Of a stretch of DNA of 64,000 nt, positions 28,801-55,100 are shown one piece after another. Below the pieces are notes generated by a model that made no database searches, was not told where the DNA came from, and saw only the letters and a list, made by a program, of their open reading frames with translations. Position 1 is the stretch's first letter, and every line of letters starts with the position of its first letter. A program made the position numbers and the translations under genes. This DNA is from Owenia fusiformis (taxonomy: Eukaryota > Annelida > Polychaeta > Sabellida > Oweniidae). The stretch spans positions 23,797,564 through 23,861,563 of the forward strand of contig CAIIXF020000007.1 in assembly GCA_903813345.2 (NCBI GenBank). Reading direction: 5' to 3'.

Positions 28801-31291
28801 GTTTTACCAAGATTCAATGCCATAAATGTCCAAAAGAAGATTTATCAAATGTAATATGGTGTCTGCCAGAATCCATATTGGTTTCAATATCTTAACATGA
28901 GTATGGAAGAGCTAGTGAAATATGTCAGGAATGGCATCAAAACGAGCTAAAAAATGTTCTTCCATTCAAAGCATACAAACTCAGGTTATATTTTTGCAGT
29001 CGAAAATTGAAATTATTGTCTCAATTTGTTTTTTCTTTGTGATTCCAGGGATGGGGGACAACCATGTGACTGTTGAGAATTTTTCACTGAAGGAGTATTC
29101 TCAGAGCCAACGCCAGCTCCACAAACGAATCCTACAGGAGCAGAAACTGCAGGGAAAATTACTCCACACCTCTTTACTCACGAGCAGTATCCTTGCACAG
29201 TCTGCCCTAGAGGAGGAGACCATAGCAGCAGAAGCTGAAATAGAAAGTAGTCCGGAAGAAAATAATTCCAAGGCTAAGGATACAGCTGATGATGTGAGTG
29301 AAAAGGATTCAGATGATAACATGGAACGTGATGAGGATGATTCCTGTAGCGATTCAAGTAGCGATGAATCTGATGATGATCTCAATGTCGATGATTATTA
29401 TTTTCTCACTCCAGTACCTACCCGGCAACGTCGTGTATTACTCCGTACTGCAGGCATTAAGAAAATAGACTCCTCAGAAAAGGAGGAATGTAAAGATATT
29501 AGAATATCGCGCGAGTCTTGTGGATGTGACTGTAAGGGATTTTGTGACCCAGAGACCTGTCTGTGTGCGCTATCAGGGATTAAATGTCAGGTTGATCGCT
29601 TGTCATTTCCTTGTGGATGTACTAAAGATGGCTGCGGAAATCTTAAAGGGCGTATTGAATTTAACCCTATTCGAGTAAGGACTCATTTTATACACACTCT
29701 GATGAGACTCGAGCTTGAGAAGAAACAGCGTGAGTCACAGGAAATCAGGAGGCGGAATCGGCATGTTCGTTTCCAAGACACAAGCAGTGAGGAAGAAACA
29801 CCTGAGAAAGTTAACAAATTTGAAGATGTTTCCGAGTATAATAGTAATGAAATGGGAAGCTGTAGAGACTGTCAGAATTCAGAAGTGAATAATGTGGTAA
29901 TGCGTGAAGTTACCCAGTATCAGTCCAACATGGAGGTGGAAACAAGTATCTCAAACAATGATTTCTCTGCATTGCATTATAAGCAGCAGGATGAGAGCTC
30001 CATTGCCAACCAGGCAAAAGAAGCCAATGATTCAGTACAGCGCGTCATGATGTTTAATGATAGCGATGAGGAGAAAGTGTCTGATAGCAGTGCCATCTAT
30101 GCTTTTACTGGTGAAGAGAGTTCGTATTCAGAGAGCAGTGATTGTTCTAGTGAGGGAAGTGTCTCTTACGAGGAACATAATGGGTACCATAACAACTATG
30201 AGACTTTCAATGCTGATGGCACCACCACAAGCGGTTACTGCATTCCCTCTACGACAGTTGGTTACCAATCAGCGAGATCACAACAGGAGCAGAAATACAT
30301 GGACGTCAACAACTCCACAAACTCCATGTTCAAACTGGAGCCAATATCAGAAATTCTCAACCCCATTCGCTATTCTAACTACACCACAGATGGTCAGTCA
30401 TGGTCCAATAATTCAGAGTCCTTTTATTCGTATGGTTCAAATGGAGGCATGAGCAATGGTAACTATGGTACCAGTTCAGGCACACGAGCAGATACAACTC
30501 AGTATCCTTTTCCCGCCACTGACCAAACTGTACCGTCACAAGTCCATCATGTGCAATCTAGTCACACACCTGTTCTTAGCCAATCAGCTGTAAATGGTTG
30601 CCATAGTAGCAACACAAACAGCACTTGCCTCAGTCAATCAAATATCAGTACCCAGTATAACGACACCTCCGTGACCAACCAGACCTTTACAGAATCAAAT
30701 TCCAACGGCATTACCACCACTTACACAAACCTGAATCAGGTCCAGTCTAGCACTCTCACTGGCTACAATATGTGTCCCCAGACCACCTCTTCCACACAGC
30801 CATACCACGAAACAACCCTCACATGCCTCGATAATTGCTCCAGCACAATGGGCTCCACCCCTAATAATAATGCCCCTGTAGAAGTAAATGCTAAGGAGGG
30901 CCCTGTTAAGTTAACAAGTCTCAGTAATGTCCTAGTCAGTTCAAGCAGTGATCCTTCCAAGTCAGCCAGGGACTCTAACTTCTCTCACACGTTGGATAAT
31001 CACAATTACAGTGATAGCTCATTGGAGTCTGGTTCTATAGGGTTGGGTTGTCAATCAAGTGTTGGGGGCGGAGACTTCCAGTCAGGGTGTGGCGACTACC
31101 AGGCAGAGAGTGGCCTGGGGAGCAGCCGCATGAGTGATTCTAGTTCTGACTCCGCCCATTCAGATGGTTTACCTTCTTCAAAGAGTAGTTTTGTTGACAG
31201 TTCAAGTGATAACTTCTCTCCAGCATCACCAGGGGCCCAGGATTTTGGTGAAATTATCAAAGAGTCAATTGTTGAAACTGTCTCAGCTTAA
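25825..31291 (+). CDS. CSRNP: Cysteine/serine-rich nuclear protein (CSRNP/Axud1 family)
   Basis: Coding exons are 25825-26258 (ATG at 25916), 27363-27479 and 29049-31291. They join in phase to 900 codons. CSRNPs are nuclear proteins proposed to act as transcription factors, linked to TGF-beta/Axin signalling, apoptosis and development. The N-terminus [13 protein letters not shown] matches the KRKFD start of the vertebrate proteins. Residues about 120-153 ([20 protein letters not shown], then [14 protein letters not shown]) and the next exon ([10 protein letters not shown]) form the family N-terminal domain. An acidic Ser/Asp-rich region follows, then the Cys-rich core from about 309, beginning [18 protein letters not shown] and including [12 protein letters not shown] and [17 protein letters not shown]. 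The last 500 residues are Ser/Thr/Asn/Gln-rich and unstructured. At about 900 residues it is longer than the roughly 550-600 residues of vertebrate members. The upstream ATG at 28922 is intronic and is not the start. Confidence 0.93.
25949..26182 (+). repeat. Coding repeat (NGDIT-type) in CSRNP exon
   Basis: About eight imperfect copies of AATGGTGATATCACA-like DNA encode [28 protein letters not shown] and NSDITNG. The repeat expands the region right after the KRKFD motif, where vertebrate proteins have a short acidic Ser-rich stretch. Confidence 0.75.
26935..27217 (+). repeat. Dispersed GTCC-rich element, 3' fragment
   Basis: It contains two internal units with GGCCATTTTGAAAAATGGC and GCGATTTTGTTCATATCTGG, then the family end TGGGATTTGCTACGCTTTGG and GTTGCTGTTGTGTAG. 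The GTCC-rich left end is missing. It lies in the intron between the first two coding exons of CSRNP. Confidence 0.6.
27642..27673. repeat. Short perfect palindrome, copy 1
   Basis: CATGGGCTTTCAA and TTGAAAGCCCATG are separated by CTAA. The same palindrome occurs at 45501-45536 inside LMAN1. It is in the intron between CSRNP coding exons 2 and 3. Confidence 0.75.
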
Positions 31292-40088: not shown

Positions 40089-43000
40089 ATGGCCAACAAA
40101 ATTTCTTTTTTTGTAATTTGCACAATACTTTGTGGGATATCTGCTGTTCTGGGCCAGCTTACCCACAGAAAATTTGAATACAAGTTGAGCTTTAAGGGTC
40201 CTCACTTAGTGCAAAAGGACGGGACGATCCCTTTCTGGGAACATGGTGGACGTGAGTATTTTTCCAAATGTTTACATCTCTGATTTTTTACCATATGCCG
40301 GGTTGCATATGTGGCATTAATTAGAGACGGCTTCCATCCCCAAATATTGCCTAGCATATCAACATCTTTTGAAAAATCACTTTTATCATATCAAGTAGTA
40401 GGTTATATATGTAGTTTTCAACATTTTGTTCAGGGAATATTGATCATTGTTTGTTTGTATCCTTTATAGCGTTATAATGCCGCTTATTGGTCACGTGTTA
40501 CTGGTTATTCCCTTGTGCTTGCTCTTGATACTTATTCACTTGTTCTTTATCAAAAGTCTAAAATTCCTTATACTATTATATACAGTTTTTATATGTGCTC
40601 ATTTAAAATCTCCTGGTTTGCCTAATGTAATTGCAAAAGGCATGAAATATTGTCCTGTTTGTTGATTGTGACAGGTTTATGTTACGACCACTTAGAGTCT
40701 GTAGATCCAGTAGTGGATTTGTATTTTCTCCTAGGAGTATATTGTCAACTTTCGAGTAGAGCTCTTGTCTTTCCAGCTCAAAGAGACCACATGTATTAAT
40801 ATAGTGGTCGACAGTTTGAATGTGAATCTGGGGAGGGGGGTTCACATATATATAGATCTAAACATTGACGGGGATCTTCGGCACCTTTCTTAACATTTGT
40901 CCAAAAATATGACTTTTGAGGTACAGTTATGTGGGATATTTCCACTTTCTGATTTGAGTATGGTCGTGTACAAACCCTCACGATTTATCTCGTGCCAGGA
41001 CTATAGTCCTGTGAACGTCTTATTCTTTTGCCTGTACGATTACAACATGGGAGAATTTTCTACGCTTCTTACACTTAAAACACCTATTTCAATAGATTCC
41101 TTGGTATTTTAGCATTCTTTTCGTGTAGTTGAATGCACAATTGTCTGGGTTTATCGGCAGAACAAAGAAATTTTCTTTTTTGATCGCAATATTTGCGTGT
41201 AATATTTAACTTATTTCAACCGTCAAATTCCTCCATTTACTGGTGCTTCCGGGCCACTTCCGGGTCAGTCAAACGGGAAATCCCCTTTGAAATCCAACCG
41301 CCATCTTGGAAAGTGATGGAATATCTCTTGATGAAAAAGAAAAACGTTCCCGTTCTGCCGATATACCCAGACAATTGTGGATTCAACTACACGAAAAGAA
41401 TGCTAAGATACCTAGTAGGTAGTTGAAGTAGGTATCTTAAGTTTAAGGGGCGTAGATAATTCTCCCAAGTTGTAATTGTACAGGCAAAAGATTGCACTCG
41501 ATGCAGGACTATAGTCCTGGCACGGGATAACTCATGATATATTTGGTATATGGCAATGGGCCACTATTCTTTGGTCATTTGGTATGGCATTGGGGCATTA
41601 TTTAAGGTAAGTCTGCATGTTCGGATTTTGCTGCAATCCTCAATTGAGTCACATGTTATTTTTTAAGTAGGAATCACTCCTTCCCCACATTGTCTACATC
41701 TTTCAGTTTTGCACAAAAAGTGCATTCATGTACCGAGAAAAGACCTTCCGTCACTGAATTTTGTCGTTTTTTATACATTTTACAAAACAAATCTTCTCAT
41801 CAGTCTTTTTCTAGGTTCATTAGTGCACTCTTTGTGAAAAACTGAAAGATGTAGACAATGTGGGGAAAGAGTGATTCCTATAGTATTTGAAAAATAACAT
41901 GTGACTCAATTTTCGAATGCAGCAAAATTCCGAACATGCAGACTTACCTTAATTATCGGTTGGTATGGGAATATATTGAAATTTGACAGATTCCATAATA
42001 TCTGAGGGTTCAGCCTAGGATCACGCCAAAGCTTATATATGGTGAAACCCAGGAATGTGAATAGACTAACTTGTTAGATCTATAGAATTGACATTGACTG
42101 CAGTTTGGGCTGAGGGGACCAAATCAATATTTACTGTACATGTAATGATCTTGCTCCCATATCTCTGTTTCCTCAAAGATCTCCAATTTCGGCAATTGTG
42201 AGTAAGTCACCCACCAGTTTACTAACTTTAGTATAGAGTGTGGGGGGGGGTTGGCTTACTCCCTGTAATTGTTATGTTATAGTTGGCTAACGTAACAGGT
42301 TAATTATATCCACATCAATTTTCATCAAATTTACCATTAAATTAAAAATAAAAATTGAGACTGGTTAAACTTGTTAATTAAGAAATAAAAATGTAACATC
42401 TGATTTTACTTGTAATCGAATATCATTGTGTCAGGAATAGTTCTTGACAATACAAATATTTTTTTTAGGATATTGATTGACATGTAGAGTGTTCTGATTG
42501 ATAGACCAACATTTAATTTCTGATTTAATTTTGTTGATCACATTCCCTCTATTATAAATAATTTTATAATTTCAATCACACTACAATTGACTGATTGCAG
42601 ACTTGATCTCCATATAGGTCATTGTTACTTTTTTGTGAATTTTTTGGGCCATCTAAAGGGAGGGCTAGGATCCCTCAGATCTGCCAGTATTGTATTATAA
42701 TTATAAGAAACTCAAATACCATTCGCTCGATTTTGTTCATATTTTGTACACATATACCCTATGGGGATACAAGTTCTGCTTGAAAGTCGATTTTAGAAAT
42801 GGCCACTTTTTTAGAAATGGCGGCCCATTTTAGTGCCGATCCTAAACTGATAAATTAATCCTAAAGTTTCTTTGTTTCAGATGCTATTGCCAGTGACGAG
42901 TCCATTCGTATTACACCCTCTCTGAGGAGCAAGAAAGGTGAGTAAATATTGTTTCATGTTTTTACAACATTGAAGTATGTGATCAGTCTCATTTACAATC

Positions 43001-46000
43001 TCTAACTATGTCTGGTGTTTCTCACAGTTATAGAGAGTAGGGTGCGACTTACCCAGGTTTAGTCACATATGTTACATAATATCCCAAATTATGCACAAAA
43101 ATACTTTCTAGTGGGTTTATTCCATTTTTATGAATCAGAATTTCTGCATATAAGTTAAAGCTGTTTTCCTATTTTAAAATTGCCATTTGGCCATTGTATT
43201 AGTTGAATTAAACATCTGTTGCAAACCCTGCCATTAGAAAAATTTGTGTCCCTTTTTGGATAATAGGTTTAAGCAGAACTTTTCAAGCAGATTGATTTTT
43301 TACAAATTTGAAAGAAACATGTGTTTATTAGATATCTTTTCCCATGAATTGTACTCCTACTCTAAAGTGTACTTACTACTTATAGTGTACCTGCATCATT
43401 AATCTACTATGTACATAATAAAACCTCTTATCTTGAGGCAACTTGAGCTACCCTCTAACATGGACACTTTTCATATATCCATTTTTCATTCCTCAAATTG
43501 ACATCCATTTAACTAACCTTTTGAAGACCAACACCCAAACTTGAACATTTTTACTCGTTTCAGTTTAGAGGTCATGTTTAACTATTGTACAAGGATATTT
43601 CGGTTGAGTACTTTAGATTTTACTGTACATCATGTTTTACTGTACTTACTTATATGGTTATGTTCCAGGTTATGTATGGGGTAAAAACAAACTTACCTCT
43701 GAGAGCTGGGAGGTTGAGATGACCTTTAGGGTCACTGGGCGTGGTAGGCTAGGAGCTGATGGCCTGGTGAGTGTATTTTCCATATTTATTAAACCCTCAC
43801 TTAATGATATGATATAAGCTGGGATGTCTGATAATCCATGATAAAAGTCACACTCCATTATTGTTAATAAATGGCTCCCAGTCTAACAAAAATGCATATA
43901 CATATAAAAACACAGGTGTACAATTCCACAATCAGAAGACATTTTTACTGCTGATATTTTCACAGAAATATAAACCTTTACTCTCAAATTTAAATCCAAT
44001 GGTTCTGTATAACGATGACTAATTATTCAAGCAAAATGTTTTTTAGGCTTTCTGGTACACTTCCCAAAAAGGTGAAGAAGGTCCTGTTTTCGGTAGCAGT
44101 GACATGTGGAATGGTCTTGCCGTCTTCTTTGATTCATTTGACAATGATGCCCAGCACAATAACCCTTACATCATGGCAATGACCAATGATGGCACTAAAC
44201 AGTATGACCATCAAACGTAAGTTTATATCCCTTATGCATGTTAACTTCATGGTAAGACAAAACATGCTAATTAAATACAAAAATCCAGATTTACTGGTCA
44301 TCGGTGTGCCTTTGTTAATGTATAATAGAAATCTAAATGCAAGTGCACGTGAACCTATATTTATTCATCCCATACTTGGACGTGTTCCGGGAACATAAAG
44401 CTGGTTTAAAAAAACTTATATTTTCATCAGCGGGCAGATATTGCTTTACGTCCCGCTCCTTGGCCAATATAATATATTATATTAGCCTCAGGATAATCCC
44501 AATATCCTGAACCTCATATAGGATAATCTCTATATACCTCATTGCAGGGAGGGGTCCCTTCTGTATATTTACTTCATGGTAAAACATACTAATACAAAAA
44601 TCCAGATTTCAAGTCTATTACTGATCATCTCAGTATGCCTTTACTAATATATACAATAGCAATGTAAATCCAAGTGCACATGTACTTATATTGATTTACT
44701 TTATTGCAGTGATGGGTCAGCACAACAGCTTGGTGGTTGCCTCAGGGACTTCAGGAACAAACCATTCCCAGTCAGAGCTAAGATAGAATACCACAAGAAA
44801 GCACTAACAGTAAGTACATGTACATCATTTCGATGTATGGATTGGCACTGAAAGAAAATACAATGTACAAATCCACTCTGTACTGATCGACCTTCATTTT
44901 GAAAATAGAGCCACCTACCCATTTATGTATTTGTAGTCAGAAACCATTTCATTTTACCTTCAGTACTGCAATCTGAAACTACCCCGTCATGTTCTTAAAG
45001 TCAAGGATTCTATCAAAATGTATATATGATTAGAGTTAGTATCTAAAATATTCCATTCTCTATTAGCCAACTGCTAATACAGTGTAATTACTTGTGTGTA
45101 TACAATAGTGAACGGAATCAATTTATATTGTAGACTTACCTATGATTATGTGATTTAAATGATCTATAATAGATTCAATGGAATCATTTAGAAAATTGTG
45201 TACTGTGAAGATATTGAATTGAATTAATCAGGCATCTGTTTCATACTCAAATTTATTCATATTTTAGCTGTTTTTCCACAATGGAATGACCAATAACAGG
45301 GAAGACTATGAGTTGTGTCTTAGAGCTGAGAATGTCTACCTGCCAGCTGAGGGCTATCTTGGGGTATCAGCTGCCACAGGAGGACTTGCAGGTAAATCAG
45401 TTGGATCTTATATCTTTGGAGCATCCTCAACTTTGTGCATGTATGATATAAGGGAGTTACCATAAACTACATGAATGGCATTCAGAAGTTGTACCATACA
45501 CCATGGGCTTTCAATTATCTAGTTGAAAGCCCATGCATACACTGTACATTTGTGGTATAAAGACATTTTAGAAAGTTAATATTTTCTGATATTATTTATA
45601 TTGTATTTGTAATATCCCTATATGATATTTTATTTCAAGTCATAAATAACTCAATCAATTTATTGAATAAATCAGGTAATTAATTTTGATACCAACATTG
45701 TATTTTATTCATTTTTAAATGCCCTTTGGTTAACTTAACAATTTATAATTAACACATAAATGTGATTATTTCCAGATGATCATGATGTGCTGTCAATACT
45801 TACCCACACTTTAAATGAACCTAGCGCTCCTGGGGTGAGTTAGATTATGATTAGTTCCCGACATAAATATTGAAAAAATGTAATCTCTGCCTTTAACTCT
45901 TTGTCCTAAAATGAAAAATTCCTTTTAATCTGTTTCTCCACCAAATTCAGTTTTGAAAATCCTAGGTATTTTATAAGGCAGCCATTTCGCTTTTATTTAT

Positions 46001-49000
46001 CACTGTGTGTTGTGTTCGTAGTTGTGATATTTACAAAAATGATTATTCATTATTCACAATAAAAGGTCCCTTTTGAAATAAATAAATCAAATATATGTTT
46101 CCACTTTTTTAGGCACCTGGCAGTGTTCCAGAAGAGGAGAGACGAAAGTTTGAACAAGAATTCAATGAATATCGGGATAAACTAGAAAGGGCCAAGGATG
46201 AGTGAGTTGACATTTTTCATTTCAATTCTTCTTGGCTCAGTCACATTTGATTGAAGGCAACTGACCAGCAGTCCTAGCTTCCCAAAATCAATAGAAATAT
46301 GCAGCATAAAATACAGGGATAAGCAGCACGGTTTTGTGAAGCTACGACCATCATATGCCCGCCGTAGTGCAAATCTGACTGAGACTTAAATACTTAATTG
46401 CTATGTTATGTTATTGAGACTTGTAAGAGAGAACATTTTCATACTGGAGAAACAATTTGATTTAAGTTATACTTATTCTGTTCAAACTTCCATGGAACAA
46501 TTTTTTGTATACACCCACCTGAAACACAGTATATTTATAATTTACTAGCATTTATCAAAGACAGTTTGAGATAATATTTGTTCAGAAAACAGCATACATT
46601 TTATGAAACACATAACATTTAATTTACCAGCTATCGCAAGGAGCACCCTGATGCCAAAACTGATGACACAGAAGACGAGGATAAATGGGTAGGTGGCGCT
46701 ATTTTCAAAATGAAGGTCGATCAGCGCAGAGTGGATTTTTCAAACAAACACAAAATAACCTAAAAAGTAATATGCTTCCATTTTTGTTTGAAGAATCCAA
46801 ATCATGCCTTAAATCGAGTCAACCATTCAAGGTTGCCCTAAAGTTCAATTGTATTTTCAAGTTAAAACAAGTTAAATGTTGTGCTATTTTATTTGCCAGA
46901 TACAAAGCTGAACATCCGAATGTCGCTAATTTAAATGAAGAATACAATCCTGATGACTGGGTGAGACATGAGTGCCACCTATTGCCTATATAGGAAATAG
47001 TGCTTTTCTGTTGCATACTTTAACATCTGCACCTGTTTTTGTTTTTATTGTTTTCTTAGACATTCATAGTTTAACTTGATTTTCTCTATTTGTCATCTAA
47101 GGCAATAGATTTGAAGACCTGTCCCACATAGACCTGTCCCACATGTATTGATCAATATGATTAAATTCCAAAACATCTGAATTATTTAAATCTCAGTTTG
47201 ATAGAAAATAACAACAAGAAATAGTTGCACTTTTGCGCTGGTTAAACCTTGTGTTTTTGTTGACTATCTTGGGTGATTTCCTTTAATTTTTGATGAGAAA
47301 TGAAACTATTCTGTTCTAATCCTCATCTTCAAAGAAACATGTAACTGGTCTTCCCTGTTACTGGTCCTTTCCTTTATAATGAAGCCCAAATGTTATATCA
47401 AAGAACATGATAAATAAACCATACACCATATTGTACATAAGTGTGTTTTTATAAGAATAATACTCTGTATTATGTAGGCATATTGATAGTGCTGTATATT
47501 CATGAGTAGCTGTTCATGCGATACTTAACTCTATAGACACAATAGTCTAGATTAATCTATGATGCTTTATAGTATAAATATGTACTATAGTCCTATGTAA
47601 TATAAAGAACAACATCTAAGAGCTTGCTAATACATTTAGTGCTTTGATTAAGGTAGGCTAAGTGGAATCACTTTTCCAATCAAGTCTGATATTACTCATT
47701 TTGCTCGACTTACCTTAATGTGATTACTTTCTGCAACTTCAATATATGAACAAAATTTTGAAAATAAATAACGATTTTGATTTAAATTGTGATAATGAAT
47801 GTATTTTTTGGTCTGGATCACTGAACATGTACTTTTAATATCAAATATTTTTGCTCCGAATAAAAAGGAAGAATTATTGATAATCTGTACAATTACATCC
47901 ATCAACCATGAGAAGTACAATGCAAGATGCCATTTTGAGTTAATTTCTTAAGGTAGATTTACACAGTGAGGATATTTATGTGATTTTTTTATAAATACCA
48001 ACGATTATTGATAAATAAAAAAGAGAATATTTTTCACATTTTTTGGATGTTTACAATTTAAAATTAAATGTTGAAATATCATCAAATTTTGGATATCAGC
48101 TTTTTGTGAAAATGGGGATCTACCTAAACTCACATTTTGTACTTTTAAATATGTTTGCACCTTGATTTATATGTTATTAATTTAATGTGCCTTTTATTTC
48201 AGTATGAGAGCCAGCAACAGAGAGAATTGAAACAGATCTTTGATGGTCAGAACATGATACATACAGTAATCAGAGACCTTAATCGTAAAATTGATGAAGT
48301 AATTGGTCGCCAGGAAAGAACTATATCTCAGATCTCAATGATAAACTCTGGCAACACAGGCCAGGTCGTGCAACAGCCGCCTGCTGGAGGCAATCAGGTA
48401 CTGGAACTACTTTCATTTTTTACGTTTGTGTTCTGTTTCAATATTTATTTATTTTTCATCTGAGAGTTAATTCATCTCAAATATTTGAAATCTTCATATT
48501 CAAGAGACTGTAAAAGATGCTCTCTTTCTCAAACAAACCCTTTGAAGGGCTTTCAGAGTTCATATGCCTTATATAATCACATGCCTAATGACATGTCATA
48601 TTTTTAGGGAGGCCAAGCTTATGTAGATACTATAAAACGCCATGAAGTTGAGACAGTTATACAAAATGGGCGAGATATCCTAAACACAGCTAGAGATCTC
48701 AAGTAAGAAAATTTTAGGTTTTTGTAATTTTTCTCATTTACAATGAGTATCTGTTATTGTATTCATCGAAATTAATGCAATTTTATATGTTGTTATGTGA
48801 TTCTGTAATGAAAGACTAAGATGAATATTTCTTTGTTTATTCAATAGATGTTTATCACGTTCACCATAAGACTTGATCTCAAATGAATACCTTATCCAAA
48901 ATCTATGCATGACTAGAAAGTGGCTTTCATATGACCTTGAATTTATGAAGTGGAGCTGATTCATCTGAAAATGGACAAGTATACGAGTGTCAAAACTGAT

Positions 49001-52000
49001 TTTACTGAAAGATTGTAGAATAAAAAATCTAAACCATCCTTATCTATTTTATTCCAATATATTATGTTAACTTGAGTAGATCTTGAGTAAAAACTTCGAT
49101 GAAAACCTGTCTGTACCATGTTTACCAATTTCAGAGCTATGGTAAATAGCGTTTCACAAAAAGTAGGCCAAGGGGGTGCAGCACCCCCCTCTGGTTATGA
49201 AAACCAAGCATCTCAACATGAAGTCAGAGACAGTTTAGTTAATCTACAAAATGATATTAAGCATTTAATAAATAAACCGGTAAGCTTGAGTTATAGCATG
49301 CTTGAGTTATAGCATGCTTGTGTTATAGCATGCTTGTGTTACAGCATGCTTGTGTTATAGCATGTCCATTGTAGCATGTTGTTGCAAGTAAATGTGTTGT
49401 TAAAATGGCAGCCTACATATTAGTTTATGATCATATTTCCATTTCCTAGAGATTTTTACCTATAAAATGATAATTTTTTTTGTACAAATCTATTATATGT
49501 TCTTATGATATGACATGTGAGGTTTAGGCTACATAACAGCAGGATATAGAATTGATATATTGGGGAAGTGAGACATACATTATATCTCCCACTGTGTATT
49601 CCCGCTCTAATATTCCTGAGAAAACGTTTTTGTTCAGTGTAGAAACAATTTATATATTTTGCTAAAGTGAAACTCACAAAATGGATTCTGCAGATGGTAG
49701 AATTTCTCTTGACCAAAATTCTGATGGTTTTTCGAAAATAATGGGAATGAGAATGCTTTAAAGAAACCTGGATATGGGTATCCTGAAAACCTCACTTGTG
49801 AAACCTCACTTGTCAAGGGATAAATTAGTTATGTGAGTGGGATTTGTATCTAGTTTTCTTATTCAAGTAAAATTGTCTAGGAAATATCTGAGATCATGAA
49901 CTAATCTAAAGGCTGTATATAGATGGAGTAATAGTTGGTTGGACTTTGTAGTTTCATTCCCCTTTTAGCAAGAAAATATGCTTCTTGCACCAGATATATT
50001 TGAAGTGAAGGTTTTTCCTGGAATTTCAGACACCGCAAAATGATATCTTCCTTCTTTTTTGTTTCTGAAAATTAAGCCAGAGAGACAATTTATTGCAGAA
50101 CACATCAATTTTGGAAGGAAAATCTTGACATACTGTCATTTAGCCTTCACACTTCAAAAGTACATATTTTTACATTTCAGTCAAAATTTCCTGAATATAC
50201 TAATACATATACTTGTATATGCCATTTTAAATTGATAACAATAGCCCGAAAATGTAAAGAATGCATGCCAATAAACGGGGAAGTAGTCTTCAAACCATGA
50301 TTCTGACACATTAACTGCAAAGTCTATACTTCTATACTCCATATACTTTAGTGTTATTGTAAGCTATACACACTGTTTATACTCACTTCTATCACACCTT
50401 TTCTCTATAGGTACGTCATAGAGCAAATTCACACCAAGACCTCGTCTCTGTCTGGGAGCACAGGTGGAGGTAGTGCAGGAGGTTACGACTCCGGCAAAAT
50501 CTTAGATAATATTGGCAGTCTTCAGGATAGCATGAGAAGCTTGTTGAATAAACCAGATGTATGTACATGGTCCTTCCTTGGAGTTGGAGGTTTTTTCTGT
50601 CTTTTTTTCAGGATTTGATTTGGTTTTGGTTTTCTTGGTATTCCATCCACGTATATTTTTTAGCATAAAGATATGGGACACTGGTGGAGGATTGGATAAT
50701 ATTTAAATTTTGTTTTTTGATTTTCTTGATCTTTTATGTTCACATAAGTATACTGTGCTTGTATTGCATGTTTCTAGTGAATATTGAGACTTTGTTTAAT
50801 TATATCTTAAGCTTTCAGATCGGAAGGTGGATTTGATTTATTTTGACAAGGCTTATTTTATATATAAACATTGTATAAATACTAATACTGTTTTAATAGT
50901 CAACAAATGCTATGCATTTTCTCATAGTATAAAATTAAAATCATTTTTTCCATTTCAATAATGTAAGTGGAACATATACCCACTAGGGTGTCCAGCGGCT
51001 TGTTTTTTATAGTGTATATTATTTAAGAATTATGAAATAAATAAATTGAATTAAAATTGAAAATTTAAAAGTGTTTCTGAAACAATTTGACTTGAGTTCT
51101 TAAATTAAAATCAAATTTTAATTATTTCAATCACCTTGTAGCAGTATAGTATACCTTTACAGAATTTTAGTGTCACTCAAAGCCCTAAGAAATGAACTAT
51201 ACCAAAGCAGCCCTCATTTCATTAAATAGCACTTTAACTTCTTAAATGACCACATTTCTTAGGGCTATGTGCTAGCCTATTTCATTGACTTTAGTCTGAA
51301 TGATCATGTGCTTTCTTTGACTTGCAGGCAGCAGTGCCAGTGTGTCCTGTGATAGAGACTCCAAAGTGTGTCAGCTCTACCCTACTTCTAGTCTTTTTAG
51401 CAGTCCAGACTGTCATATTCATAGGATACATGGCCTATAAGTAAGTTGATGCATGCTTACTAGGATTCATAGGATACCGCCACCTTGCTTTTTGTTGTAG
51501 TCATTTCTGAATAAATTGTTTGTAAAATTATTCTGAATTTCAACCTTGTCTTTTTATACCACTATAATTTATGCTTCCACAATAAAGAAAATTTTCAAAC
51601 TATTTTTGGACACAAATATTTCACTTTGCTCCTCCTTATCTTTCATTCTTCCATGAAACCTGTCTAAAGTGGGTGCTTACGTCATTGTAAATTGTTCACA
51701 TTTAGAGGTCCAATATTATGGGAGTCAAACATGAGATATCCAAAATGGGTTTAAAACATTCACTGTATGGGAATTTCAATTCAACATATAGATGTTTGCA
51801 TAAACCAGGTTGACTTAACTAGTTGCTGCGTTATAACTGAATCCTTTAAAAATAGAATGAGTAACCTCACTTGTTTGATTACTCTCAAAAGGGCCACAAA
51901 AACACCCCACCCCATTGAAACTTAAACCCTGGTCCCATGACACTTGGAATAGTGTACTATAAACATTTAATATAATAAAGGTAATCCCTTACGCTTGTCT

Positions 52001-52105
52001 GCTTAAGAAAGATGTCACTACTTGTATTACAATGAACAAGCTTCAGAATATTTATTTTTGTTTTTCAGGAGCAGTAAAGAAGCTGCAGCCAAGAAATTTT
52101 ATTAG
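40089..52105 (+). CDS. LMAN1: LMAN1 / ERGIC-53, mannose-binding cargo receptor
   Basis: Exons: 40089-40251, 42881-42937, 43669-43766, 44047-44216, 44710-44809, 45268-45391, 45776-45834, 46113-46201, then 46631-46688 or 46900-46960, 48203-48397, 48608-48702, then 49135-49279 or 50411-50558, 51328-51440 and 52069-52105. Phases agree throughout, giving 500-502 residues against 510 in human. LMAN1 cycles between ER and Golgi and carries glycoproteins. Residues 1-22 are a signal peptide (start MANKISFF). The L-type lectin domain follows (FEYKLSFKGPHL, WEVEMTFRVTGRGRLGADGL, FGSSDMWNGLAVFFDSFDND, ATGGLADDHDV), with the Asp/Asn Ca2+- and sugar-binding residues kept. Next come a coiled-coil stalk, two Cys before the membrane (CPVIETPKC) that correspond to the oligomerising pair, and a membrane segment (STLLLVFLAVQTVIFIGYMA). 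The tail ends KKFY, close to human KKFF, which carries the ER-retrieval di-lysine and the exit signal. Confidence 0.95.
40983..41535. mobile_element. Foldback element in LMAN1 intron 1
   Basis: The left arm (about 40983-41062) has CGTGCCAGGACTATAGTCCT, TTTTGCCTGTACGATTACAA and GGGAGAATTTTCTACGC. It is the imperfect reverse complement of the right arm (about 41442-41535). The arms enclose about 380 bp of unique sequence. No transposase frame was seen, and no clear target duplication was identified. Confidence 0.6.
41606..41948. mobile_element. Palindromic MITE flanked by TTAA
   Basis: The arms 41606-41735 and about 41815-41948 are near-perfect inverted repeats. They start GGTAAGTCTGCATGTTCGG and contain CACATTGTCTACATCTTTCA. 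The 343-bp element lies between two TTAA tetranucleotides (41602-41605 and 41949-41952). A TTAA duplication is the mark of piggyBac-type transposition. The spacer of about 80 bp has no frame. Confidence 0.7.
42709..42838 (+). repeat. Dispersed GTCC-rich element, internal fragment
   Basis: It contains AACTCAAATACCATTCGCTC, GATTTTGTTCATATTTTGTA, CACACATATACCCTATGGGG-like sequence and AAATGGCGGCCCATTTT. It matches 12910-13035 of copy 1. It lies just upstream of LMAN1 exon 2. Confidence 0.6.
44869..44927 (-). repeat. Inverted partner of the 46681-46740 repeat
   Basis: The reverse complement reads ATAAATGGGTAGGTGGCTCT, then ATTTTCAAAATGAAGGTCGA and CAGAGTGGATTT. It matches the exon end, splice donor and intron start at 46681-46740 with few differences. 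Confidence 0.75.
45501..45536. repeat. Short perfect palindrome, copy 2
   Basis: CCATGGGCTTTCAA and TTGAAAGCCCATG are separated by about eight bases. It matches the palindrome at 27642 and lies in an LMAN1 intron. Confidence 0.75.
46631..46688 (+). CDS. LMAN1: LMAN1 alternative exon 9a
   Basis: This 58-nt exon has acceptor TTTACCAG and donor GTAGGT. It enters in phase 2 and leaves in phase 0. It encodes DYRKEHPDAKTDDTEDEDKW in the luminal stalk, where human LMAN1 has FQKGHPDLQGQP. It competes with 46900-46960, and joining both gives an immediate frame break (ATA CAA AGC TGA). The last codons and the donor overlap a repeat also present in inverted form at 44869-44927. Confidence 0.8.
46900..46960 (+). 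CDS. LMAN1: LMAN1 alternative exon 9b
   Basis: This 61-nt exon has acceptor ATTTGCCAG and donor GTGAGA. It enters in phase 2 and leaves in phase 0, as 9a does. It encodes EYKAEHPNVANLNEEYNPDD plus W. It aligns with 9a as [DE]Y[RK]xEHP..., ending in DxW or DDW. It appears to be a tandem exon duplicate. It is less charged than 9a and one codon longer. Confidence 0.75.
49135..49279 (+). CDS. LMAN1: LMAN1 alternative exon 12a
   Basis: This 145-nt exon has acceptor CAATTTCAG and donor GTAAGC. It enters in phase 2 and leaves in phase 0. It encodes a helical start (AMVNSVSQKVGQ), a GGAAPPSGYENQ linker and a helical end, NLQNDIKHLINKP. It lies before the exon with the Cys pair and membrane span. Confidence 0.8.
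49282..49372. repeat. Tandem repeat, about 17-18 bp unit
   Basis: About five copies of GTTATAGCATGCTTGTGT start two bases after the end of LMAN1 exon 12a. They may influence recognition of its donor. Confidence 0.85.
50411..50558 (+). CDS. LMAN1: LMAN1 alternative exon 12b
   Basis: This 148-nt exon has acceptor TTCTCTATAG and donor GTATGT. It enters in phase 2 and leaves in phase 0. It encodes YVIEQIHTKTSSLSGSTGGG, SAGGYDSGKILDNI, then GSLQDSMRSLLNKPD. Its plan is the same as 12a: helix, Gly/Ser linker with a GY, then helix ending in LxNKP. Joining 12a to 12b in the frame left by 12a reads into TAG after about 20 codons, so only one can be used per mRNA. Confidence 0.8.
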
Positions 52106-55100
52106 GGTAATAATGAAAAATATCAGGAGGGGATATTCAGAATATCACACATCAGGTGGCCAATAAGACCTGCAAAGACAGTGTCACTGCAGTATTACAC
52201 AAGAAGAAACCGTTGGATCTTATAGGATAACATATTATAGTCAAAATATAATGATTTTATATTCTTTTAATTCACATAAAGACTACAAAGTCATTAAAGT
52301 CTTCACAATTGTTCATATTATGTTTTAAATATAACATGAACAAAAGATGAACATGTATCCTTTGTTAACTGAAGAGAGGATTTTAGACGCAAGTAGGCAA
52401 ACTGTTCTGAATTTCGAGATACATCCCTAATAAAATTTCTGAGATAATATTTAACACAAAGTCGATCTCATGATTGAGAACTACCTTTTTATAAACACTG
52501 TTCAATTCCATATCATTCATGGGAACAGAGAGTATGTTAATTCAGTCTTTCTGCAACTTTTCACAAATTTTCATCCAAATATTTATCATTCATATCATAT
52601 GCATTCTATCGATACCTGTTAGAGGTTCAAGCCTCGCCATTTATATTGTGGAAAGTTGCGGGGAATCTGACGTCTTGATATGAATCTATAAAATGTATTT
52701 TTATTTCACATAATGTTAAAGATAATGTAAGGGTATATGCCCTGGGGTATATGCAATACTAGCTAAGAGCATGAATATTCTTTAGATTTCAATATTGTGT
52801 AATTATAGCAAGGCATTTATGATTCCGATTTAGCTTTATATTTTTCAGAAATACAATATTTCACTATAAAGGTGTAGATATATAATAGCAAGGATATGTG
52901 CAATTTAGGCTAGTGTGAATAAATAAAATGTTTGGCTTATTCACGCTCATTTATTTTTCAAATGTTATACCATGCTACTTTTGTGGAAAATAAACCATAA
53001 GTTCATGTTTTATGAAAGAAATAAGTGCTGTATTCACCACAGTCGGCCAAACTAGAATATTAGAAAAGCAAAAAGCTTCATCATTGAAATTTCTACAATG
53101 ATGAAGCAATGTTAAACATAGAATTTAATTACTCTAGCTCCATTTGTGTTTAGATAATAATATATGCATCTGAATCTTAAAGTATAAAGGCTCATATTTT
53201 TGTCATTTTGAAATATGACAATGTTATGCATTATCTACATGATGTACCTCAAATCTAATCAAAGGTGTGAAATGTGTGATATTCACAGAATATTAATCAT
53301 TTGTATGGGAAAAGTTTACTAAATGAATTGTTATTAAGAATTTCAAATTATAGATGTATAATGTATTATTTATTGGAAATGCCACTATCTCACCCATCGT
53401 ATTTTCATGAAAAGAAATTTCCACCGGAAAAGAATATTTTTACAGATTTTTCGATGATATTTGAGAACCTAAAAGTGCAGAGTTTATTTATATTTAGTCT
53501 GATATTTTTAACGAGATAGTTATATTTAATATTGATATCCCTCCTTGAATTGAAATATATTGAACCCACCAGAATATCATTGTGCAATGTGTATGGTTGT
53601 ACAGCTGAACTTACAAAGTTGATTACATTCAAGGATCTAATTAAATGTATTAAAACAACAAGAAGAACCAATAAGGAGAAAAATAAAATGTAGGATAGAA
53701 CTTTATATTATAAATGATAGTGTTGGTGTCTTATTGTGCCTTATAACTAACCTTGGTGCTTTTTATTATTAGAATTTTAATATTTTTATTTTGGCATTAT
53801 GTTAAGGTGGGACTTGCTGCATAGAATTGTTTTTAATTTATCAGATAGCTTTAACAAATAAGATTGGGTAGGCATATGAGTTTCTATTATTTTTAGCCTC
53901 AGGATACAGTCTCGAGTTATAATTCCATTTGATTTGCTTTGTATGGCAATGATGTGTCATTTCAAAATTGACCACCGATGATGACAGCAGAAATTATGGC
54001 ATAAAGGCCACTGATGTTTATATATTATTTAACTGCTATTTAAAAGCTATGACACACCCAATATAATTTGTAATTGGGGTGTGTCATGAATTCTACCTTT
54101 TGGTTTTAAGTTAGATCTGGATTGAAGTTGAGAACGTTATTTTAAAGTATCGACATTAGGCCTACGTGTCTAGTGAGGCTTTTTGTCAAATAAAAAGAGG
54201 CAAAAAAGCATAGGTTCAGAAATGGAATAATATCGACCTTTTATATAATATGAAAATAGCTAGGGTTATCACCAAACATTCCAGTTTTCAGCTCACAAAA
54301 AACACCCTCATTTTGAGAAGAGAAAAATATATAAGTTATTAGTTAACACTAAAGATGTTTTAAAATTCATTCATCCTTTAATCTTAACCCCTTCATTGCA
54401 ATTAAAAAATTGCCAAGTTTTGTTCATGTGTCATGTTAATTGTTGCAATTTTAACTTATATAATTAAGGCACTTTGGGCTATTGTGTTCATGTGTTTCTG
54501 TGAAGTGTATATCTTAATAAAAATACATATTGTAATATACTGCACAATGCAATCAACAAATATGTACTACTGACTTATGTGCTATAAACTTTACAGTAAA
54601 GTAGTTCAAATTGTTAATAATATTTTCATTATTATTTGAAGTATCATAGTTTGAATTGATTTATTTTTTAAATATTCTTTTGTCATAAAGACCAAGCCAA
54701 TAATATTAACCCAACGTACTAAGATTCTTGCCTCTAAATCTTTACATTTTACAGCTAATGAAGCTTTTACTTTAAAGTATTAACATACATTGTTTGGTTA
54801 TATGACAAGTTTAATGGCTGTAGATAAATCTTTACAAATAAAGTAAAACCTGTCTTGTCCAAACACCACTGGGATTGGCTGAAAATATTCAGATTGACAG
54901 GGGTTCACATTTGGAGGCTTCTTAGTGGAAGTCTATATCAGTTTGAAAAAGTGGGACCGAAAAAATTCACATTAAGCATGTTAAGAGGTTTTTAGATTTG
55001 ATAGTTGTTCGGCTATACAGGTTTTATGTATGTGCCTTCCTTATATTGCCTAGAGCCCTGTAAATGAGTACATTAAATATGATTTACAGTAAATAAGTAC

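Follow-up and report, generated by a model that had tools for sequence, protein, structure and literature searches.

Exons 8 and 9 of FGFR2, labelled IIIb and IIIc, are two alternative exons of which one is chosen. RBFOX proteins have GCAUG as their core motif, and (U)GCAUG downstream of an exon is associated with enhancement by RBFOX. In FGFR2, UGCAUG in the intron between exons 8 and 9 acts with Fox2 to favor exon 8 and to silence exon 9 (PMC2880598), and UGCAUG upstream of an exon is associated with silencing by RBFOX-family proteins (PMC2880598, PMC3585155). RBFOX proteins also take part in exclusive-exon choice through UGCAUG in C. elegans unc-32 (PMC3585155). Competing RNA structures, composed of a docking site and selector sequences, can enforce exclusive choice as well (PMC6071210). 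Tandem duplicated exons spliced exclusively are a known class, with 236 human events, in the main text of whose description LMAN1 is not named (PMC9741552). No report of alternative stalk exons or exclusive exons in LMAN1, ERGIC-53 or cargo receptors was found in searches of an open-licence library, and exclusive exons in LMAN1 would be a further case of this known class, in an unexpected gene. In the Owenia fusiformis LMAN1 gene described here, exons 12a and 12b are very probably an old tandem exon duplication, judged from sequence to be spliced mutually exclusively, one per mRNA. This arrangement resembles FGFR2 exons 8 and 9 in offering two alternatives of which one would be chosen, and, through the second putative pair in the gene, resembles unc-32, for which two exclusive sets (exons 4a–4c and 7a–7b) are known.

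LMAN1/ERGIC-53, a cargo receptor for the export of proteins from the ER, is generally regarded as a single protein, and its hallmarks are a long helical stalk, one membrane span and a tail of KKF plus an aromatic residue. The cryo-EM structure of human ERGIC-53 describes the stalk as three four-helix coiled coils connected by loops (Watanabe et al. 2024, PMC10944485), including the L1 loop (Gln313–Glu322) and hinge B, the loop between stalk helices S-H3 and S-H4. According to the text of the same report, human deletion mutants still help two cargoes leave the cell, and the purpose of the long stalk is left open (PMC10944485).

The window, the whole 64,000-nucleotide stretch analysed, sits on C7 of the 498-Mb genome and contains a complete spliced LMAN1 model (Table 1). 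The initial annotation had named the gene LMAN1, and this identity was borne out by a Lectin_leg-like match (PF03388, 299.3 bits against a cut-off of 24) and by a near full-length match to human ERGIC-53, the best match among solved structures (8jp4; two of the four isoforms were searched, with E 3.8e-142 and 3.4e-145). As in the human protein, lectin head, stalk and membrane span fall in one alignment (residues 23–502 with human 40–510), and the tail reads KKFY against human KKFF; stalk, span and KKF-aromatic tail are thus all present, the helices and span being judged from the human alignment. All four combinations of 9a or 9b with 12a or 12b are open, encoding 500, 501, 501 and 502 residues and ending in KKFY. 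Among the nine lectin-family matches listed across the genome, three are LMAN1 on C7 and six lie within 5.5 kb on C5. The latter six PF03388 matches (C5:4461668-4467147, minus strand) perhaps belong to one LMAN2/VIP36-like gene. A genome search with the exon peptides turned up no additional LMAN1 gene or haplotig from which 12a or 12b could derive; each exon peptide matched itself only and the search missed the partner exon too, so that it excludes near-identical copies alone.

Table 1. Positions in the window of the LMAN1 gene, its exons around the two alternative pairs, and candidate splicing elements.
Feature	Position	Strand	Basis or remark
LMAN1/ERGIC-53 gene, coding exons 1–14, complete	40089..52106	+	spliced model, PF03388, human ERGIC-53 match
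Start codon	40090	+	
Exon 9a, alternative, 58 nt	46631..46688	+	predicted to overlap L1 loop (joins stalk helix 1 to helix 2)
Exon 9b, alternative, 61 nt	46900..46960	+	position equivalent to 9a, identical phases
Exon 10	48203-48397	+	GT-AG boundaries
Exon 11, constitutive, stalk helix 3	48608..48702	+	GT-AG, phase; last bases AA of split Lys codon
Exon 12a, alternative, 145 nt	49135..49279	+	predicted stalk helix 3 end, Pro-containing hinge, stalk helix 4
Candidate splicing enhancer, tandem repeat and six GCATG	49284..49378	+	function inferred
TGCATG, candidate RBFOX silencer of 12b, ~145 nt upstream of 12b acceptor	50262..50267	+	function inferred
Exon 12b, alternative, 148 nt	50411..50558	+	predicted stalk helix 3 end, Gly/Ser-rich hinge, stalk helix 4
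Exon 13, membrane span	51328..51440	+	in frame after 12a or 12b
Exon 14, cytosolic tail	52069..52106	+	last residues KKFY
Stop codon TAG	52104-52106	+	

The reading frame bears on how exons 12a and 12b relate to each other. The initial annotation had proposed them as a mutually exclusive pair, and the boundaries, lengths and phases that it gave were all reproduced: the two exons share identical phases (two bases in, codon boundary out), the terminal AA of exon 11 is completed to Lys by A from 12a or by G from 12b, exon 13 is reached in frame from either, and splicing 12a to 12b runs into a stop (TAG, 50471). The opposite case, absent from the earlier account, is equally closed, as omission of both exons shifts the frame of exon 13 onto TGA at 51350. 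The exon runs on for 87 nt after 50471 and for 90 nt after 51350, with a later junction in each case. A stop that far upstream of a later junction is the usual condition for nonsense-mediated decay, by which messages with both exons or neither would be removed. Adjacent exons of equal phase, each of them open, together with a frame broken by inclusion of both and by inclusion of neither, are what an exclusive pair is expected to display. With homologous exons at one protein place and a frame forbidding both or neither, a mutually exclusive signature is supported for 12a and 12b, and each mRNA would carry one of them, both exons presumably being used.

Homology of the two exons was detected at the protein level. 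The 12a and 12b peptides reached a local alignment score of 54, compared with 20.9 ± 4.0 for shuffled peptides (none of 5000 as high), and they were reciprocal best non-self matches among the 3,625 open reading frames with 12 or more codons found across the two window strands (54 versus 36 for the next), as expected of the peptides of an exclusive pair. Coiled-coil exons 10 and 11 were absent from the six best matches of either exon, which argues that helical character alone does not explain the likeness. DNA likeness between 12a and 12b did not exceed chance, 231 of 300 shuffles doing at least as well, and neither did that of their 300-nt 5′ and 3′ flanks (300 and 273 of 300). Over 45 aligned residues, 13 are identical, 9 of these 13 with different codons, and identity at the three codon positions was 47, 56 and 31%, compared with chance values of 28, 26 and 26%, indicating that the likeness is kept at the protein level. 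This pattern is consistent with an old duplication, both of whose proteins have probably been kept by selection. No third copy of either pair (12c or 9c) stood out in the window among the six best matches per query, and a Pfam search of the 12a and 12b peptides returned no family for either.

Within the protein, exon 12 is predicted to encode the last part of stalk helix 3, followed by hinge B and stalk helix 4. In full-length alignments the exon of both isoforms falls on human ERGIC-53 residues ~407–459 (own count). Aligned to this human stretch alone, the exons matched modestly, with 72 (12a) and 83 (12b) of 5000 shuffles as high in local alignment and none and 106 of 5000 in global alignment, so their assigned position depends largely on how the flanks align. 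Hinge B was located by chain order and a Gly-rich stretch, the bounds given in the text of PMC10944485 covering helix 2. The stalk helix 3 end stays in one heptad register in both exons, and helix 4 has an equally spaced a/d core (V L L I L in 12a, I I L M L in 12b, I L V I L in human), each register being the best of seven for its sequence, taken without a control. Between these helices lies a linker, GQGGAAPPSGYENQASQ in 12a, which contains Pro, and SGSTGGGSAGGYDSG in 12b, which is Gly/Ser-rich; judged by composition, the 12a linker would be the stiffer of the two. In both exons GY lies within the Gly/Pro/Ser linker and the peptides end LINKP or LLNKP(D), as had been described. The helix-linker-helix arrangement previously ascribed to both exons was recovered in the predicted model of 12b (helices at 2–13 and 27–45; mean pLDDT 70.6), whereas only the second helix appeared in that of 12a (24–45; mean pLDDT 71.2, first half of low confidence), each model being of the peptide alone with a two-sequence alignment. 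ERGIC-53 tetramers would in this arrangement keep their coiled-coil register, with hinge B and stalk helix 4 differing by isoform, and the isoforms would be expected to differ in how stiff the stalk is or how far it reaches, and in which of them co-assemble, not in sugar binding.

Codon usage and splice-site scores gave mild evidence against the pair. The codon-usage log-odds of 12a was −0.315, below the leave-one-out range of −0.13 to 0.74 spanned by 11 others (9a and ten constitutive exons), and was reached by 53% of 5,522 non-coding open stretches; 12b was intermediate at −0.006, a value reached by 14% of such stretches. With few codons per exon, codon usage is a weak coding test here. It does not mark 12a as coding. 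On a small matrix of 11 sites, the 12b acceptor (−7.1) fell under all 11 left-out acceptors, the lowest of which scored −2.3, and the 12b donor was weak (1.9; left-out donors −3.1 to 11.2). The non-coding-like codon usage of 12a and the weaker sites of 12b, the latter by this small matrix, would both fit a situation in which one of the two exons is barely used, being a decaying duplicate whose frame has so far stayed open. We regard this as unlikely: frame, phases and GT-AG sites are intact on both exons, while an unused copy of that age is expected to decay, and the protein-level likeness has been kept while synonymous sites look saturated.

Two further explanations concern what the premature or alternative ends might do. 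The stops at 50471 and 51350, by their distance upstream of the next junction, are compatible with a dose switch, in which messages with both exons or neither decay and splicing errors or regulators thereby tune the amount of LMAN1. This would leave two divergent peptides with common heptad spacing unexplained, and it appears quite improbable. Slighter still is the chance that intron retention after 12a or 12b yields soluble LMAN1 lacking the membrane span, the exons serving as alternative ends; read-through would stop 10 residues past 12a and 19 past 12b, yet both exons carry GT donors and lead in frame to exon 13. Mutually exclusive use of two anciently duplicated exons is the explanation carried forward here.

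Several means by which one exon of pair 12 might be chosen were considered. Steric exclusion of 12a by 12b is unlikely given the 1,131-nt gap between them, and the GT-AG sites of both exons, as judged by reading the sites, speak against a U2/U12 mismatch. A docking and selector system would also force a one-of-two choice; pairing among the three introns at pair 12 did not exceed that of shuffled sequences (by duplex energy, 16, 4 and 6 of 20 shuffles equalled the three intron pairs), and control by competing RNA structure is not supported for this pair.

Candidate RBFOX motifs are present on both sides of the choice. Directly after the 12a donor lies a 16-bp tandem repeat of 5.1 copies (49284-49364), and six GCATG begin at 49296-49374, 17–95 nt past the donor, in the repeat and its degenerate end. 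This cluster is the densest in the window (six within 120 nt, compared with three at the next separate place), and a 21-base pattern of the repeat unit, allowing at most 2 mismatches, had four matches in the genome, all after 12a. The RNA fold of the repeat is ordinary (z −0.88). Besides the copy before 12b (Table 1), TGCATG occurs at 48906 upstream of 12a and at 50765 downstream of 12b; of the 26 same-strand copies in the window, 7 fall within the gene, against ~5 expected by length, no clear enrichment. An RBFOX-family protein on the GCAUG cluster would favor 12a, and one on the UGCAUG before 12b would hinder 12b. The cluster may be incidental, as it is mostly one 16-bp tandem repeat, which multiplies whatever it contains. 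From these candidate motifs, an RBFOX-type choice between 12a and 12b can be put forward tentatively, at less than even likelihood. A genome search for RBFOX itself gave an RBFOX-like RRM match (80% across 35 residues, the scored stretch containing a single stop codon, perhaps at an exon edge), and a search of the genome for the Fox-1_C family gave no match, a negative that carries no information as 14 controls were equally silent. In FGFR2, a receptor of another type, control was shown by mutation, whereas in LMAN1 it is read from motifs, and the LMAN1 cluster adjoins the donor of the first exon, unlike the FGFR2 element. The unc-32 gene differs from LMAN1 in encoding a V-ATPase subunit, in having its element in the intron called 7b, and in also needing a CELF protein.

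The initial annotation had argued that the same arrangement occurs twice in this gene. Its frame logic does hold for both pairs, exons 9a and 9b included, while homology is weaker for 9a and 9b. Their local score was reached by 3 of 5000 shuffles, and 9b is the best non-self window match of 9a (37 versus 31), but 9a is not the top match of 9b, coming third at 37 after matches scoring 39 and 38; codon usage of 9b is non-coding-like (log-odds −0.635). The pair corresponds to human ERGIC-53 residues ~306–323 (own count), overlapping the L1 loop; by this count human residue 313 is Asp, and numbering may differ by a few. A 58-nt inverted repeat, 95% complementary, has arms at 44869-44926, inside intron 5, and 46681-46738, spanning the end of 9a and its 5′ splice site, 1,754 nt apart. 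A genome search found two copies only, both here, and pairing at 9a was matched in stability by none of 20 shuffles. The repeat could mask the 9a donor or loop out exons 6–9a.

Considering both pairs together, the most likely reading of the sequence is that each swaps a flexible stalk joint by exclusive splicing. A fuller proposal is that splicing sets stalk mechanics, with 9a/9b swapping the L1 loop and 12a/12b swapping hinge B and helix 4, yielding four isoforms, and tetramers of mixed composition, according to tissue, a GCAUG array unique to this site favoring 12a, and a 58-nt inverted repeat unique to LMAN1 able to mask the 9a donor. We consider this combination less likely than not. If true, natural isoforms differing only in hinge and coil would let one ask the purpose of a long, bending stalk, and a secretory-pathway receptor would join the kinds of genes that use exclusive exons.

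Two other features of the window were recorded. Intron 1 of LMAN1 contains nested inverted repeats (40978-41955; arms of 162, 74, 45, 34 and 31 nt), perhaps a foldback element. Upstream of the gene, an open reading frame of 789 residues on the plus strand (28922-31291) has a match to PF16019 (cysteine/serine-rich nuclear protein domain; 228.7 bits).
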